64,000 nt of DNA from Arthrobacter citreus (GCF_038405225.1 NZ_CP151657.1:1116001-1180000), one strand, 5' to 3'; positions 52,545 to 61,564 are shown, counted from the first letter of the stretch. Notes: generated by a model from the sequence alone, not told the origin. Numbers and translations are program-made.

Positions 52545-53594
52545 ATGCCTGAGCCGGCACACCTGGGAGCCGATTCGCTGATCGGCGAGTGGCTCGACCA
52601 CCCCACCGGACGCACCGTCCTGATTGACGTGCTGGCGCGCCGCAGCCCGGATGCCCGCGCACTCTATGCCATGCGGATGCTGCCGCTTTCCTCCCTGGTG
52701 ACCCTCAGCGACGGGGTGGTGACGCCGGAATACCTGAACCTCATGGTGCAGGCAGCCAACACGCTCATCGACCTCCCCTCGGTTCGCCCGACCACAGCCC
52801 ACCTCTTTCCCTCAGCACCACCCTCTGCTCCCAATGACTGGGAGGAGCCCATTGTCGAAGGCCGGTTCCGCGGCAAAACGGTGGTGGTCTCCGGGGCGGC
52901 CTCGGGGATTGGCCGGGCCACCGCGCTGCGCGTGGCCAGGGAAGGGGGCCACGTCCTCGCCATCGATCTCAGTTCCCTGCGGACGGAAGCGCTGCTGGAG
53001 ATGAACCCGGAGCTGGACATTACCGGCATTGTGGCTGATATCTCCAACCAGGACGACGTGAACAAAATTGCGGTGCAGGCGCGGGGCCGGGTGGACGGAC
53101 TCGCCGTGGTTGCCGGAATCGCCGATGACATGGTTGCCCTTCACGAGGTGGAGGACGAGCTGTGGGAGAGCGTCTTCCGGATCAATGTTGACGGACCGTT
53201 CAGGCTGTCCCGGGCCATCATTCCGCTGATGCTTGCTCGCGGCGCCGGGTCCATCGTGAACGTGTCATCCCAGGCGGGACTCCGCGGTTCCATCGCAGGC
53301 GCCGCTTACACCGCGTCCAAGCATGCCGTGATCGGGCTGACCCGCAGCGCCGCGTACATCTACAGTCCGCGCGGCATCCGGGTCAATGCCGTTATTCCGC
53401 GGCCCACCCGCTCGGCCCTGGAATCAAACTATGGCTCGCTCGGCGGCGCCGGGCCGCTGCCGGCCCCAACGTTCACGTCGCCGGAGATCGAATCTGCGCA
53501 GATTGCTTCGCCCATGACCTATTTGCTCAGCGACGACGCCGCCAATGTCACCGGGGCGATCATGCCGGTGGACGAAGGCTGGGGCGTCGCCTGA
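52545..53594 (+). CDS. SDR with an N-terminal domain shared with the neighbouring GH3 tail
   Basis: A 349-residue protein. Residues about 107-349 are an SDR: VSGAASGIGRATA, VAGIAD, NVSSQAG, the YTASK pair and the NVTGAIMPVDEG end. The first 75 residues are not SDR sequence: LGADSLIGEWLDHP (7-20), MLPLSSL (45-51) and VTPEYLNLM (59-67). This pattern recurs at the C-terminus of the GH3 glycosidase at 53708 (LGIGSSIEEWLADP, SMPLNRL, VTPELLKRL). GGAG six bases before ATG 52545 supports this start. The SDR may act on a sugar or glycoside product; that is inferred only from the shared domain and neighbourhood. Confidence 0.85.
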   Translation: MPEPAHLGADSLIGEWLDHPTGRTVLIDVLARRSPDARALYAMRMLPLSSLVTLSDGVVTPEYLNLMVQAANTLIDLPSVRPTTAHLFPSAPPSAPNDWEEPIVEGRFRGKTVVVSGAASGIGRATALRVAREGGHVLAIDLSSLRTEALLEMNPELDITGIVADISNQDDVNKIAVQARGRVDGLAVVAGIADDMVALHEVEDELWESVFRINVDGPFRLSRAIIPLMLARGAGSIVNVSSQAGLRGSIAGAAYTASKHAVIGLTRSAAYIYSPRGIRVNAVIPRPTRSALESNYGSLGGAGPLPAPTFTSPEIESAQIASPMTYLLSDDAANVTGAIMPVDEGWGVA

Positions 53595-53662
53595 GTCTGG
53601 CTGTCGCCCGACTCTGGCTGTCGCCCGACTCTGGCTGTCGCCCGACTCTGGCTGTCGCCTGG
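53586..53662. repeat. Four 17-bp tandem repeats generated from the SDR stop codon
   Basis: The first copy, GTCGCCTGAGTCTGGCT (53586-53602), contains the last two codons and the TGA stop. Copies two to four (53603, 53620, 53637) read GTCGCCCGACTCTGGCT and are identical. A partial fifth copy follows. They lie between two converging genes. Confidence 0.92.
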
Positions 53663-53707
53663 CGCGGGGCTGTCGCCTGGATACGCCAAGGCTTGGGGCA
53701 GCGGCCG

Positions 53708-56074
53708 CTAGCTTCCGCGCCGTGACTTCAGTGCCGCTTCAAGGCGCTTCAGCAGTTCAGGAGTGACAGGACTGCCGGGAAACCGGGCCAGCCGGTTCAA
53801 CGGCATGCTGCCCACAAGCGCCAGGGACGCAGCCAGCTGGGCTCCGCCGGATGCTGAGCCGGATGCTGAGCCGGCCCCTTCGCCGCCTGCTTCGCTCAGG
53901 GCCGAGACCAGCGCGGCCGCCGCTTCCGGATCGGCCAGCCATTCCTCGATTGATGATCCGATGCCCAGCAGGGGAGCGGGAACGGTTCCGTCCAGGGCAG
54001 CGACTCCGGCCAGCCGGATATCCCGTGACGACGCCCCGATCTCCAGCCGGTATTCCCCGGCATCCGCCACCCAGGTCCGGGTGACAGGCTCATAGCGGGA
54101 CAGGGAGCGGACGTCGAGGCGGAACTCCACGGTCCGGGACTCACCCGGCTCCAACCGCACCTTTTCGAAGCCGCGCAGTTCACGCCGCGGGTGCAGCGGC
54201 CGTTGCTGACCGGCGTCATCCCCCGGGGCGCCGGAATACAGCTGCACCACATCGCTGCCGGCGCGCCCGCCCGTATTCGTCACGGTGAGCTCAACATGGA
54301 CCAGCTGCCCGGACCCGGCGCCCACCACTCGCACCCCAAGATCCGAATACGCGAAGCTGGTGTACGAGTACCCATGGCCAAAGGGGTAGGCCACCTCCAT
54401 GCCACGGGTGTCGTACCAGCGGTAACCCACCAGGAGGCCCTCGCCGTACCGGACCGTTCCACCCTCACCGGGATAGTTGCCGTAGGCGGGAGTGTCGGAC
54501 AGCCGCAGTGGTACGGTTTCGGCCAGCCGTCCGCCCGGCTCGTCCCGGCCCAGGAGCACGTCGGCTACCGCGCCGCCGCCCGCTTCGCCCGGCAGCCAGG
54601 CCTCCAGGACCGCCGGCACGTCAGCCGCCCAGCCCATATTTACGACACCGCCGTTGGAAAGCACCACCACGGTCCGCGGATTCGCTTCGGTGACGGCGGT
54701 GAGCAGCTCCAATTGCGCATCGGGCAGATCCAGCGTGGTGCGGTCATACCCCTCGCTTTCCGCGGCGTCCGGCAGGCCCAGGAAGACGACGGCGGTGTCG
54801 GCCGCCGCCGCGGCGGCAGCAGCCATTTCCACCAGGTCCTCTCCGGCACAGGGCGATTCCCGGGACAGGACATAGCCGGGCTCAAACAGCAGTCCGGGCA
54901 CCAGCTCCTGCAGTCCGTCCAGGGGCGTGACCAGCCGAACGGGGTTTACCCGGGAGGATCCGCTGCCCTGATACCGGGGTGTGCGCGCCAGCTCGCCAAT
55001 CACCGCCAGGGTGCCCTCCGAAGACAGGGGAAGGATGCCGCCGTCATTCTGCAGCAGCACCATGGACGCGGCCGCGGCCCGGCGGGCCAGGTCATGATGC
55101 GCTGCGTAGTCCGCCTCTGCTCCGGCGGTGCCTGAAGCCGTGCCCGCAGCCCTGCCTGCGCTGGTCCCGTCAGCCGTCCCCGCAGCCGTCCCTGCGCCGG
55201 CATCCGGCTGCACCGGGGCGCGGCGCATTAGGGCGAGGATCCGTTCCACTGAAACGTTGACCAGTTCCTCGGTGATGGTGCCGGCGTCCAGGGCCGCGGC
55301 AAGTTCCCGCACACCGAGACCGCCGCTGGACGGCATCTCCAGATCCAATCCGGCGGCGAGCGCTGCCGCCCGGTCAGTCACCGCACCCCAGTCCGACACC
55401 ACCACGCCCTCATAACCCCAGGTGTCGCGCAGCACGGTGCCGAGCAGCCAGGGGTTCTCAGCGGCATGCAGGCCGTTGACCTTGTTGTAGGCGGCCATGA
55501 CGGTCCACGGTCCGGCAGTGCGGACAACTATCTCGAATGCGCGCAGATAGATTTCATGCAGGGTCCGCTGATCAACCACGGCATCCACCCGCATCCGGTC
55601 CGCCTCCTGGTTATTGGCGGCGAAATGCTTGGGGCTGGCGCCCACGCCCGCCGCCTGGACGGCGGCCGTCCACGCAGCACCCAGTTCACCCGCGAGCAGC
55701 GGGTCCTCGGAGAAATACTCAAAGTTGCGTCCGCACAGCGGCGTTCGCTTGATGTTCAGGCCCGGTCCCAGCAGGACGTCCACGCCCTGGGCGCGGGCTT
55801 CGTGTGCGACGGCGGTGCCCAGTTCCGCTAGCAGGCTGCGGTCCCAGGAACACGCCGTCGCGCACTCGGCGGGAAAACATGTGGCGGGAAGCGACTCGCC
55901 CAGTTCCAGCCCCGCTCCATCACCGGCCGGGCGCCGGACGCCGTGCGGGCCGTCGGAAAGGACCAGGGCCCGAATCCCCTGGGCGGGAAAGGCTGCTGTT
56001 TCCCAGAATCCCGCACCGGAAAGGAGCTCCAGCTTCTCTTCCAGCGTCAGGTCCGGCATGGCTGGAATTTCCAT
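53708..56074 (-). CDS. Glycoside hydrolase family 3 (beta-glucosidase type)
   Basis: A 788-residue enzyme releasing sugars from beta-glycosides. Domains: the GH3 barrel (about 1-290) with the catalytic nucleophile in VVVSDWGAV; the second GH3 domain (about 330-540, AVIGELARTPRYQGSGSS); a fibronectin-III-like domain (about 580-690, VELTVTNTGGRAGSDVVQLY); and an 88-residue C-terminal tail (701-788) homologous to the N-terminus of the adjacent SDR. No signal peptide, so oligosaccharides would be imported first. GAGGAGG lies just before ATG 56074. An Ala/Gly/Thr-rich low-complexity insert (about 292-318) follows the barrel. Confidence 0.94.
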   Translation of the reverse strand: MEIPAMPDLTLEEKLELLSGAGFWETAAFPAQGIRALVLSDGPHGVRRPAGDGAGLELGESLPATCFPAECATACSWDRSLLAELGTAVAHEARAQGVDVLLGPGLNIKRTPLCGRNFEYFSEDPLLAGELGAAWTAAVQAAGVGASPKHFAANNQEADRMRVDAVVDQRTLHEIYLRAFEIVVRTAGPWTVMAAYNKVNGLHAAENPWLLGTVLRDTWGYEGVVVSDWGAVTDRAAALAAGLDLEMPSSGGLGVRELAAALDAGTITEELVNVSVERILALMRRAPVQPDAGAGTAAGTADGTSAGRAAGTASGTAGAEADYAAHHDLARRAAAASMVLLQNDGGILPLSSEGTLAVIGELARTPRYQGSGSSRVNPVRLVTPLDGLQELVPGLLFEPGYVLSRESPCAGEDLVEMAAAAAAAADTAVVFLGLPDAAESEGYDRTTLDLPDAQLELLTAVTEANPRTVVVLSNGGVVNMGWAADVPAVLEAWLPGEAGGGAVADVLLGRDEPGGRLAETVPLRLSDTPAYGNYPGEGGTVRYGEGLLVGYRWYDTRGMEVAYPFGHGYSYTSFAYSDLGVRVVGAGSGQLVHVELTVTNTGGRAGSDVVQLYSGAPGDDAGQQRPLHPRRELRGFEKVRLEPGESRTVEFRLDVRSLSRYEPVTRTWVADAGEYRLEIGASSRDIRLAGVAALDGTVPAPLLGIGSSIEEWLADPEAAAALVSALSEAGGEGAGSASGSASGGAQLAASLALVGSMPLNRLARFPGSPVTPELLKRLEAALKSRRGS

Positions 56075-58829: not shown

Positions 58830-59780
58830 CTACTGCGCGAAGTCCGTTGAGTTGTAGATGTTCAGGTTCAGCGCCGATGCCACCTGGGCCACGGCATGCT
58901 GCGCCCGGACGCTGTTGCCCACCGGATCCAGCGGAGGAGAAAAGGCCGCGATGGCCAAGGTGCCCGGCATGATGGCCAGCACCCCGCCGCCCACCCCGCT
59001 CTTGGCGGGCAGTCCCACTTTGTAGGCCCAGTCTCCGGAGGCGGTGTACAGCCCCTCCATGGTCATCTCCGCCAGGATCGGCGGAACGAGGGAAGCATCA
59101 AACACCTGCTTTCCGGTGACGGGATTCCGCCCCCGGGCCGCCACTGTTGCACCCATGGTGGCCAGGTCCCGGGTGGTGACCAGAGTGGAACACTGCCGGG
59201 TGTACACCTCGCAGGCTTCCATGGGATCCGAGTACATGGTTCCGCCCGAGTACAGCAGCCAGGCAATGGCACGGTTATGGAAGTTGGTGGACTGCTCGGA
59301 GTCATTGACGGCATCGCTGATCCTGATCTCGCGTCCGGCAAAGGCGCTTTGCATGTCCAGGATCTTCTTCCAGCGCTCATCCGGCGAATCGGCCGGAATC
59401 AGGGACACTGTGGACATGGCGCCGGCGTTCACCAGGGGCGACACCGGTTTGTCCCCGTGCAGCGCCACGGCAATGACGGAATTGAAGGGCTCCCCGGTGG
59501 GATCCGCCCCCACTTTGTCGTGGAAGTCCGGCAGGCCAACACTCTGCATGGCAAGAGTCATGGAGAAGACCTTGGAAATGGACTCCAGGGCGAACTCGAA
59601 GCCGGCGTCCCCGGCCTCGAACGCCTCGCCGTCGGCCGTCACGACGCAGACGCCGAACAGCGAGGGATCCACGGACGCCAGGTACGGAATGTAGCTCGCG
59701 TTCTCACCGCCGGAGTCATTCGCGTGGTCCGCGTGGGCTGTTTGGACAGCCTGGGCTATCGCTGACTTGTCGGGGATCAT
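58830..59780 (-). CDS. glsA: Glutaminase
   Basis: Hydrolyses glutamine to glutamate and ammonia. The 316-residue serine-dependent glutaminase has FALESISKVFSM with the Ser-x-x-Lys active site, YIPYLASVDPSLFGV, NAGAMSTVSLIP, and VGLPAKSGVGGGVLA. It overlaps the antiporter stop by four bases, so it is part of the gadB-gadC-glsA operon. Its role there would be to make substrate for GadB and release ammonia that takes up protons in the cytoplasm. The longer frame upstream to 60614 is the shadow of the antiporter gene. Confidence 0.95.
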   Translation of the reverse strand: MIPDKSAIAQAVQTAHADHANDSGGENASYIPYLASVDPSLFGVCVVTADGEAFEAGDAGFEFALESISKVFSMTLAMQSVGLPDFHDKVGADPTGEPFNSVIAVALHGDKPVSPLVNAGAMSTVSLIPADSPDERWKKILDMQSAFAGREIRISDAVNDSEQSTNFHNRAIAWLLYSGGTMYSDPMEACEVYTRQCSTLVTTRDLATMGATVAARGRNPVTGKQVFDASLVPPILAEMTMEGLYTASGDWAYKVGLPAKSGVGGGVLAIMPGTLAIAAFSPPLDPVGNSVRAQHAVAQVASALNLNIYNSTDFAQ

Positions 59781-61546
59781 AGGGCTGCGCTCCCGCCTAC
59801 CGCCGGCCCGGACCGGTGGCGAATCGTTGATTTGTCGGTGCCGGACGCCGGGGAGGAATCCGACGACGGGGCACCGCCCGGGGCGGTTTCCCCGGAGCCT
59901 TCTCCGGCACCGGCGCCCGAGCCGACGGCGCCTGAAGCCATCGCCTGCTCGGTCAGGACCGCGGTGGGCACGGATGATTGTGTCTGGACGCCGGGATGGC
60001 GGTGCTCCAGCTCCCACGTAAAGGGAACGAAGCTGCTGGCCGGGTCCCGCCAGTGTGGTTTGCGCAGTGCATAGATCACCAGCGGAAGGATGAAGAACAC
60101 GGCTGCGCCGCCCGCCAGGATGCCTACATACACGGCCGGCGATCCTACGGAAATCTGGTCCGGAGGGATGAAGCTGAAGACAAAAGCCATCAGCGAGCCG
60201 AGGAAGCCGAGGCCTCCCACCAGCCACATGCCCACGTCCCCTCCGGGTATGTGGTACGGCCGGGGCCGGTTGGGCTGCGTGTAGCGCAGGTAAATGGCAG
60301 CGCCGAACATCAGCATGTACATGATCAGGTACAGGATGACGGTGAGCTGGCTCAGGATCTGGTACGCGGCCTGCACCGAGGGCAGTACCACGTAGACCAG
60401 GCCCAGGGCCGTGACCACCAGTGCCTGGAAAAGCATGATGTGGGTTCCCATGCCGTGCTTGTTGGTGTGCTGCCAGAACCGCGGCAGATACCCCGCCTTG
60501 GCCACGGACAGGAGGCCGCTGGACGGGCCGGCCACCCAGGTCACCACACCGGCGAGCACCCCGATCAGCAGCATGGCCGCAATGATTGGACCTGCCCAGC
60601 CAATGCCTGCCCACTCGAACATGTCGTTGTAGGAGGTCAAAAGTGATTGGGTCAGGTTGATGTCCGCCTGCGGAACCACGAAGGCAATGGCCAGCGTGCC
60701 CAGCACGAAGATCACCACCGTTCCCAGCGCGGCGATCAGCACTGCGAGCGGATAGTCACGGGTGGGGTTCTTCACTTCCTTGACGTGGATCGCGTTCATT
60801 TCCATGCCGGCGTAAAACAGGAAAATGCTTGCGGCCAGCACCACGTTGGAGAAGTTGGAGAAGTCAGGGACGAGTTCGCCCCAGCCCATCTTGATCTGGG
60901 GCGTGTTTCCCGCGAAGTAATACGAGAATCCCAGCACGATCAGGACAGCGGCCGGAATGATGGTGCCGATGATGCCGCCCCACTGGGCCACTTTGGAGAA
61001 CGCGGCGGCCCCCCGGAAGGCAATGAAGGTGGCCAGCCAGTAGACCACCAGCACCACCGCCAGGACAAAGGCCTTGTTCCCCGACAGCTGGGCATCCAGG
61101 TTTTGGTCGGTGCCGGTGTAGGCCAGGGACACCGCGCCGAAGGTGAGGACGGTCGGGAACCAGATGCTGACTTCGATGAAGAGCATGAACATCGCCACGA
61201 AGGCCCAGCGCGGGCCAAACGCCTCACCCACCCAGCGGAAGACGCCGCCCTGTTCCGGCCACCCTGTGGCCAGTTCGGCGGCGACGAGCGACACCGGAAT
61301 CAGGAAGACCACGGCCGCGAGCACATAGTAGAAAATGGAGCTGAGGCCGTACTCCGCCTCTGCGGGCAAACCGCGCAGGCTCACCACGGCCACAATGTTC
61401 ATGACGGCCAGGGCGCCGATGGTGATTTTGGCGGTCTGCTTTGCCTTGGCCGTCCGTGCCTGGTCCGAAGAACCCGGTGCGGAAGAACCAGATGATGACG
61501 AGCCGGTTGATGCGGACGATCCGGTTGATGCAGTGGAATCACTCAT
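59777..61546 (-). CDS. gadC: Glutamate:gamma-aminobutyrate antiporter (GadC-like APC permease)
   Basis: A 589-residue APC-family transporter exchanging external glutamate (or glutamine) for internal GABA. About 12 helices follow a Ser-rich N-terminus. Family features: ELATGWPEQGGVFRWVGEAF, EVSIWFPTVL, FYAGMEMNAIHVKEVKNPTRD and WVAGPSSGLLSVAKAG. The hydrophilic C-terminus (about 505-589), Ser/Gly/Pro-rich, is in the position of GadC's pH-gating C-plug. ATG 61546 has GAGGAGG eight bases before it. It lies between gadB and glsA. Confidence 0.93.
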   Translation of the reverse strand: MSDSTASTGSSASTGSSSSGSSAPGSSDQARTAKAKQTAKITIGALAVMNIVAVVSLRGLPAEAEYGLSSIFYYVLAAVVFLIPVSLVAAELATGWPEQGGVFRWVGEAFGPRWAFVAMFMLFIEVSIWFPTVLTFGAVSLAYTGTDQNLDAQLSGNKAFVLAVVLVVYWLATFIAFRGAAAFSKVAQWGGIIGTIIPAAVLIVLGFSYYFAGNTPQIKMGWGELVPDFSNFSNVVLAASIFLFYAGMEMNAIHVKEVKNPTRDYPLAVLIAALGTVVIFVLGTLAIAFVVPQADINLTQSLLTSYNDMFEWAGIGWAGPIIAAMLLIGVLAGVVTWVAGPSSGLLSVAKAGYLPRFWQHTNKHGMGTHIMLFQALVVTALGLVYVVLPSVQAAYQILSQLTVILYLIMYMLMFGAAIYLRYTQPNRPRPYHIPGGDVGMWLVGGLGFLGSLMAFVFSFIPPDQISVGSPAVYVGILAGGAAVFFILPLVIYALRKPHWRDPASSFVPFTWELEHRHPGVQTQSSVPTAVLTEQAMASGAVGSGAGAGEGSGETAPGGAPSSDSSPASGTDKSTIRHRSGPAVGGSAAL

Positions 61547-61564
61547 CCCACTCACCTCCTCGAG

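Follow-up and report, generated by a model that had tools for sequence, protein, structure and literature searches.

The closest described relatives of the domain analyzed here lie at the C-termini of glycosidases. For the GH3 beta-glucosidase PSTG1, the structure paper (J Biochem 2023) reportedly describes a 'C-terminal lid domain' that takes part in aglycone recognition. Judging from its name, the PSTG1 of the PDB entries is probably PSTG, an intracellular and probably tetrameric GH3 enzyme acting on sesaminol triglucoside (PMC3622683). In FMN-binding gut beta-glucuronidases (GUS), the C-terminal domain is mobile and was unresolved in crystals (PMC8748916, PMC9377255). Models place it flanking the active site, where it "may act as a gate", and truncation of Rh2 GUS after residue 644 lowered activity on mycophenolate-glucuronide eightfold (PMC9377255). 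The C-terminal domain of Rh3 is likewise needed for triclosan-glucuronide processing (PMC8748916).

We analyzed a 64,000-nucleotide stretch of the Arthrobacter citreus genome (the window), in which two convergent genes encode a short-chain dehydrogenase/reductase (SDR) and a GH3 glycosidase that both carry a small terminal module. This module belongs to the same sequence family as the C-terminal domains of PSTG1 (8j9f, 9lql) and C. thermocellum BglB (7ms2). The window GH3 has its module in the same C-terminal position as these enzymes, whereas in the SDR the module is N-terminal and attached through a disordered linker to a Rossmann-fold oxidoreductase. In the FMN-binding gut GUS (7kgz, 6mvg, 6mvh) the module falls inside the C-terminal region, but those proteins have a GH2 catalytic domain and a C-terminal domain of ~150 residues, larger than the module.

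Domain organization of the SDR and GH3 proteins

The SDR-family oxidoreductase is encoded by an ORF at 52545-53594 on the plus strand (349 aa), with an ATG start codon and GGAG upstream, and consists of an N-terminal helical lid-like domain, a flexible linker and a Rossmann domain. A Pfam scan matched adh_short (PF00106) to residues 111-295 at E = 2.8e-46. Like classical SDRs of that family, the protein is complete in its Rossmann and catalytic residues: the GxxxGxG-type motif is GAASGIG at 117, and N214, S242, Y255 and K259, all present, are invariant columns in SDR alignments. NAD(H) use by SDRs is read from an Asp after the second strand, and the presence of Asp141 in that position suggests NAD(H) as the cofactor. 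The departure from classical SDRs is an extra N-terminal part of ~105 residues, which many close homologues lack. Because close relatives without the tail exist (found at four loci), the tail is an add-on that is not essential to SDR catalysis.

Within this extra part, the helical module covers residues 7-72 by HMM (52563-52760, plus strand) and ~7-75 overall, and was matched at E = 2.7e-21 in a genome search with a profile that includes the SDR's own row. It is followed by a linker to the Rossmann domain, residues 76-100 (52770-52844, plus strand), which is predicted to be disordered and differs in length and sequence between homologues. In a model of the full-length SDR the tail mostly had pLDDT 78-92 and the C-terminal third was modeled poorly, while residues 76-100 had pLDDT 46-56, consistent with a flexible linker. 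Outside the genus, tailed SDRs lie near genes for TetR regulators, transporters and unrelated functions, a mixture without a common theme that would hint at the substrate. A plasmid search with the SDR returned one Streptomyces plasmid-like replicon with a full-length 42% relative, the rest being generic SDRs.

The GH3 glycosidase gene lies at 53708-56074 on the minus strand and encodes 788 aa with Glyco_hydro_3, Glyco_hydro_3_C and Fn3-like domains and the C-terminal module; Pfam matches were PF00933 (E = 1.6e-37) and PF01915 (E = 2.4e-55). The motifs SDWGA and ESEGYD start at residues 227 and 439, and a signal peptide is not evident. Its solved relatives are 7ms2, 8j9f and 5wab. The C-terminal helical module, residues ~703-784 (53729-53968, minus strand), matched the module profile at E = 2.9e-19, and a profile built without the window GH3 sequence aligned it to residues 677-752 of 7ms2 and 705-779 of 8j9f.

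The two tails as one homologous module

The initial annotation had proposed a tail common to the N-terminus of the SDR and the C-terminus of the GH3, with the same motifs in the same order and spacing. In our alignment, SDR LGADSLIGEWLDHP...MLPLSSL...VVTPEYLNLM pairs with GH3 LGIGSSIEEWLADP...SMPLNRL...PVTPELLKRL, so the motif order is indeed common to both. The spacing is not, since helix 2 and the MPL motif of the GH3 copy are set further apart by an insertion of ~15 residues rich in Gly, Ala and Ser. The local BLOSUM62 score of the two tails was 62, compared to a mean of 25.0 (sd 4.6) for shuffled GH3 tails, corresponding to Z~8, and none of 2000 shuffles reached 62. When separate profiles were built from 11 SDR N-terminal tails and 18 GH3 C-terminal tails, they matched each other at E = 3.6e-19, and enlarging the SDR profile to 49 tails brought this to E = 2.7e-21. 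The SDR profile alone also matched residues 721-753 of 7ms2 at E = 4.9e-4.

Segments this short and helical could resemble each other by chance or through convergence on amphipathic helices, and the reversed GH3 profile did mildly match the SDR profile (E = 2.7e-4). The true match, however, is ~17 orders of magnitude stronger than this reversed control, and column-shuffled controls gave only E = 0.13-0.42. In addition, five independently built module profiles mostly cross-match while their column-shuffled and reversed controls do not, and the fold match described below is independent of these comparisons. We therefore regard chance similarity as extremely improbable, and it is close to certain that the SDR and GH3 tails are homologous copies of one module.

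Modeling of SDR residues 1-85 with AF2, using only SDR tails as input, gave a mean pLDDT of 81.7 and five helices (13-18, 20-31, 37-42, 50-54 and 61-76). When this model was compared to 350,542 PDB chains with Foldseek, the top seven matches were all chains of PSTG1 (9lql, 8j9f), at probabilities of 0.87-0.99 though with E values of 0.1-0.7. VIA-align superposed the SDR-tail model on PSTG1 residues 674-753, the C-terminal domain, with Z of 7.1 and 6.5; a VIA Z below 8 is weak on its own, and here the fold match accords with the sequence evidence. The modeled SDR tail thus matches the PSTG1 C-terminal domain in fold. The proposal of a shared tail would have been refuted by a lack of profile similarity or by divergent predicted folds, and it survives both checks, as the two segments match at the profile level and the predicted fold of one is found at the C-terminus of a GH3 enzyme.

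The next structures in the fold search were the NMR entries 2k53 and 2k5e (VIA Z of 6.0 and 6.9 over 66-70 residues), which a DUF1858 (PF08984) profile matches at E = 1.7e-24 and 3.9e-18. DUF1858 has a helix arrangement similar to that of the module, but Z values of this size may reflect only a common helix layout, and the aligned DUF1858 members share a pair of conserved cysteines that is missing from the module. Membership in DUF1858/ScdA_N, suspected from the motif layout, was rejected given the absence of a Pfam match and hhalign E values of 0.11-0.19 against the SDR tails. Weak PDB matches to ribosomal L10, troponin and designed repeat proteins were treated as composition, and neither a viral library fold search nor a scan of viral contigs for the SDR from Bacillota (see below) gave a match.

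Occurrence of the module on unrelated enzymes

Scans of the SDR, GH3 and GH13 tails and of the secreted proteins against Pfam and NCBIfam at loose thresholds returned no credible family, and the module is uncatalogued in both. Its presence was instead traced with module profiles, for which the best reversed decoy reached E = 0.28; weak matches (L075-L081, L183, L185, L186 and L209) were left out of the evidence. Genome searches found the module C-terminal on GH3 enzymes of Actinomycetota, Bacillota and Pseudomonadota, and profile searches of the PDB found it at the C-termini of solved GH3 enzymes (7ms2, E = 8.1e-24; 8j9f, 2.9e-14; 5wab, 5.4e-4). The earlier description of EWL...MPL...TPE tails on some actinobacterial GH3 enzymes was thus right but too narrow. 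C-terminal copies also occur on GH2 proteins, at residues 652-729 of Rh3 beta-glucuronidase (7kgz, E = 5e-6) and on a GH2 protein with DUF4982 (L303). Among other GUS chains, R. gnavus 6mvg matched the module profile at E = 0.14 and Rh2 6mvh only at E = 2.5.

N-terminal copies are found on the SDR family of the window type at ~40 loci in Micrococcales, Amycolatopsis, Prauserella, Nocardiopsis and further taxa. In Bacillota, an SDR of another subfamily (L301) was matched at 1.2e-14 by a profile made from secreted proteins only, and GH13 alpha-glucosidase-like enzymes (L213 and others) were matched N-terminally at 5e-7 by the SDR profile. An apiosidase-like hydrolase (L304) gave a weak N-terminal match (5e-5). 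The module also occurs as single-domain proteins of ~110-140 residues with apparent signal peptides, in ~20 of 150 genomes of an Alphaproteobacteria-like order. The same module thus sits at the N- or the C-terminus of enzymes with several unrelated folds and also forms proteins by itself, in keeping with the small transferable helical unit that had been postulated. What is new is this range of partners (SDR, GH13 and single-domain secreted proteins) and not the domain itself, which was already present in solved GH3 structures.

Pairing of the SDR and GH3 genes

The A. citreus genome has three module copies at E <= 0.01, the window SDR, the window GH3 and a second SDR encoded at genome position 3346926. 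This third copy was absent from the initial annotation, which had proposed that the module couples a glycosidase to a dehydrogenase acting on sugars. Under that explanation the two tails would interact, directly or through a common partner, co-localizing GH3 and SDR so that a released sugar or aglycone is oxidized in place. The location of two of only three copies at this locus favors it, as does the finding that, of the 11 genomes of the genus carrying the window-type SDR, 10 have SDR and GH3 as near neighbors. Across all tailed SDR loci, however, just one in 40 had a second tailed gene within ~6 kb on either side, and that locus (L086) is from the same genus.

Within the genus, co-occurrence was not significant: among 29 genomes the SDR is present in 11 and a close GH3 in 23, with both in 10, GH3 only in 13, SDR only in one and neither in five (10/11 vs 13/18, Fisher p=0.24). 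An AarF/ABC1 kinase gene regularly adjoins the GH3 gene whether the SDR is present or absent. Gene order is also unfixed, as a thioesterase gene intervenes between SDR and GH3 in L086 and L280 and the GH3 is gone in L087 and L279. Two related genomes, representing two species, share a one-base deletion near nt 668 that frameshifts the SDR while the GH3 remains full length, and in five genomes of the genus the second SDR is retained with its tail where a close GH3 is absent. The module is probably not a link between the window GH3 and the window SDR, and docking of the two tails appears very unlikely.

The physical adjacency of the two genes could alternatively reflect recent copying of the tail from one neighbor to the other, leaving a similarity without functional meaning. 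In a tree of 88 tails, which rests on few columns and does not resolve deep branching order, tails instead clustered by enzyme type: the window SDR tail grouped with SDRs of other genera and the window GH3 tail with GH3s. Forcing the two window tails into a clade cost 96 log-likelihood units (AU p=1.9e-6), showing that the tail was not copied locally. Local copying is refuted under the tree model used, and we consider its probability negligible.

The module as a candidate lid or gate

The evidence from FMN-binding GUS and PSTG1 favors a tethered lid or gate that holds the non-sugar part of the substrate. We consider it about evenly balanced whether the module, a mobile helical accessory domain of ~70 residues, serves as the lid or gate of its own enzyme and not as a link between the SDR and the GH3. 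It would sit as a flexible element at the entrance to the active site, capturing and orienting a bulky, often aromatic or hydrophobic part of the substrate such as the aglycone. In the window GH3 the module would form a C-terminal lid, by direct extension from the solved and characterized relatives. By analogy with the glycosidases, the module of the window SDR may gate the substrate pocket from its ~25-residue tether, acting on its own subunit or on a neighboring subunit of a tetramer.

Some observations fit the lid reading poorly. The SDR module is N-terminal and loosely tethered while the GH3 module is not, and a lid role would not account for the single-domain secreted versions. The existence of close SDR relatives without the tail also speaks against a part that SDR catalysis requires. 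Since the GUS C-terminal domain comprises ~150 residues, the module is only part of the region that was deleted in the truncation experiments, and in Rh2, the GUS truncated after residue 644, the module is matched only at E = 2.5.

The main competing explanation is that the module is a homo-oligomerization or stability element that packs on sister subunits without direct contact to the substrate. A small helical domain found at either terminus would suit this role, and the conserved positions of the module are mostly hydrophobic, Gly or Pro. SDRs are usually tetramers. PSTG is probably tetrameric as well (PMC3622683). On the other hand, SDR homologues without the tail exist, and the FMN-binding GUS models put the C-terminal domain at the active site, where its removal lowers activity (PMC9377255). 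On this evidence we judge a purely oligomeric or stabilizing role to be unlikely, though a serious competitor to the lid or gate reading.

A broader form of the lid or gate reading is possible but can be put forward only tentatively. In this form, the module is a portable, uncatalogued gate domain that has become attached time and again, at one end or the other, to glycosidases of several unrelated folds and on at least two occasions to SDRs, and its secreted forms may, on their own, bind small molecules like those gated in the enzymes.

These findings show that an uncatalogued module forms a terminal region of GH3 enzymes with solved structures and also lies in the activity-setting C-terminal domain of drug-reactivating gut beta-glucuronidases. 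The GUS part, the GH3 tails, the N-terminal tails of GH13 enzymes and SDRs and the small secreted proteins form one family. PSTG1 residues 674-753 thereby offer a structural template for the FMN-binding GUS domain, which by published accounts has never been resolved, and the binding target of the module becomes testable on an 80-residue protein. If the portable-gate reading is true, chemically different enzymes would use one common part for substrate gating.

Distribution and variation of the module

The helical module shared by the window SDR and GH3 glycosidase also occurs on other proteins. It is N-terminal in seven GH13 alpha-glucosidase-like enzymes (loci L213, L214 and L216-L220), all from one small order of Bacillota, and it makes up the whole of a set of small proteins (L187-L207 and L211) that are secreted, as judged from apparent signal peptides. 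These module-only proteins were found in about 20 of the 150 genomes covered from a single proteobacterial order. Within the GH3 module, one loop is variable in length and rich in Gly, Ala and Ser throughout the group; many GGAPES(S/N) repeats enlarge this loop in the GH3 tail of L002.

Tailed SDRs of actinobacterial appearance were recovered under the labels Vibrio cholerae 35D (L098), Planococcus sp. (L094) and a Saccharibacteria MAG (L095), records that are probably mislabelled or contaminated contigs.

The SDR-GH3 junction and a second tailed SDR

A tandem array of the 17-bp unit GTCGCCCGACTCTGGCT (53586-53659; 4.4 copies, 96% matches) begins in the final codons of the window SDR and extends into the gap that separates it from the GH3 gene. 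Two relatives, L010 (genome G001) and L011 (G021), carry a window-type SDR with an identical one-base deletion near nucleotide 668, each adjoining a full-length GH3 gene; this common frameshift is inherited. Elsewhere in the window (58830-61555), a putative amino-acid antiporter gene adjoins a glutaminase-like gene, and the pair, as read from the sequence, resembles a glutamine-based acid-resistance pair.

A second tailed SDR (L085, L283; genome position 3346926-3347900) shares about 47% identity with the one in the window; it is kept throughout the whole genus, and may be a better target for functional studies.
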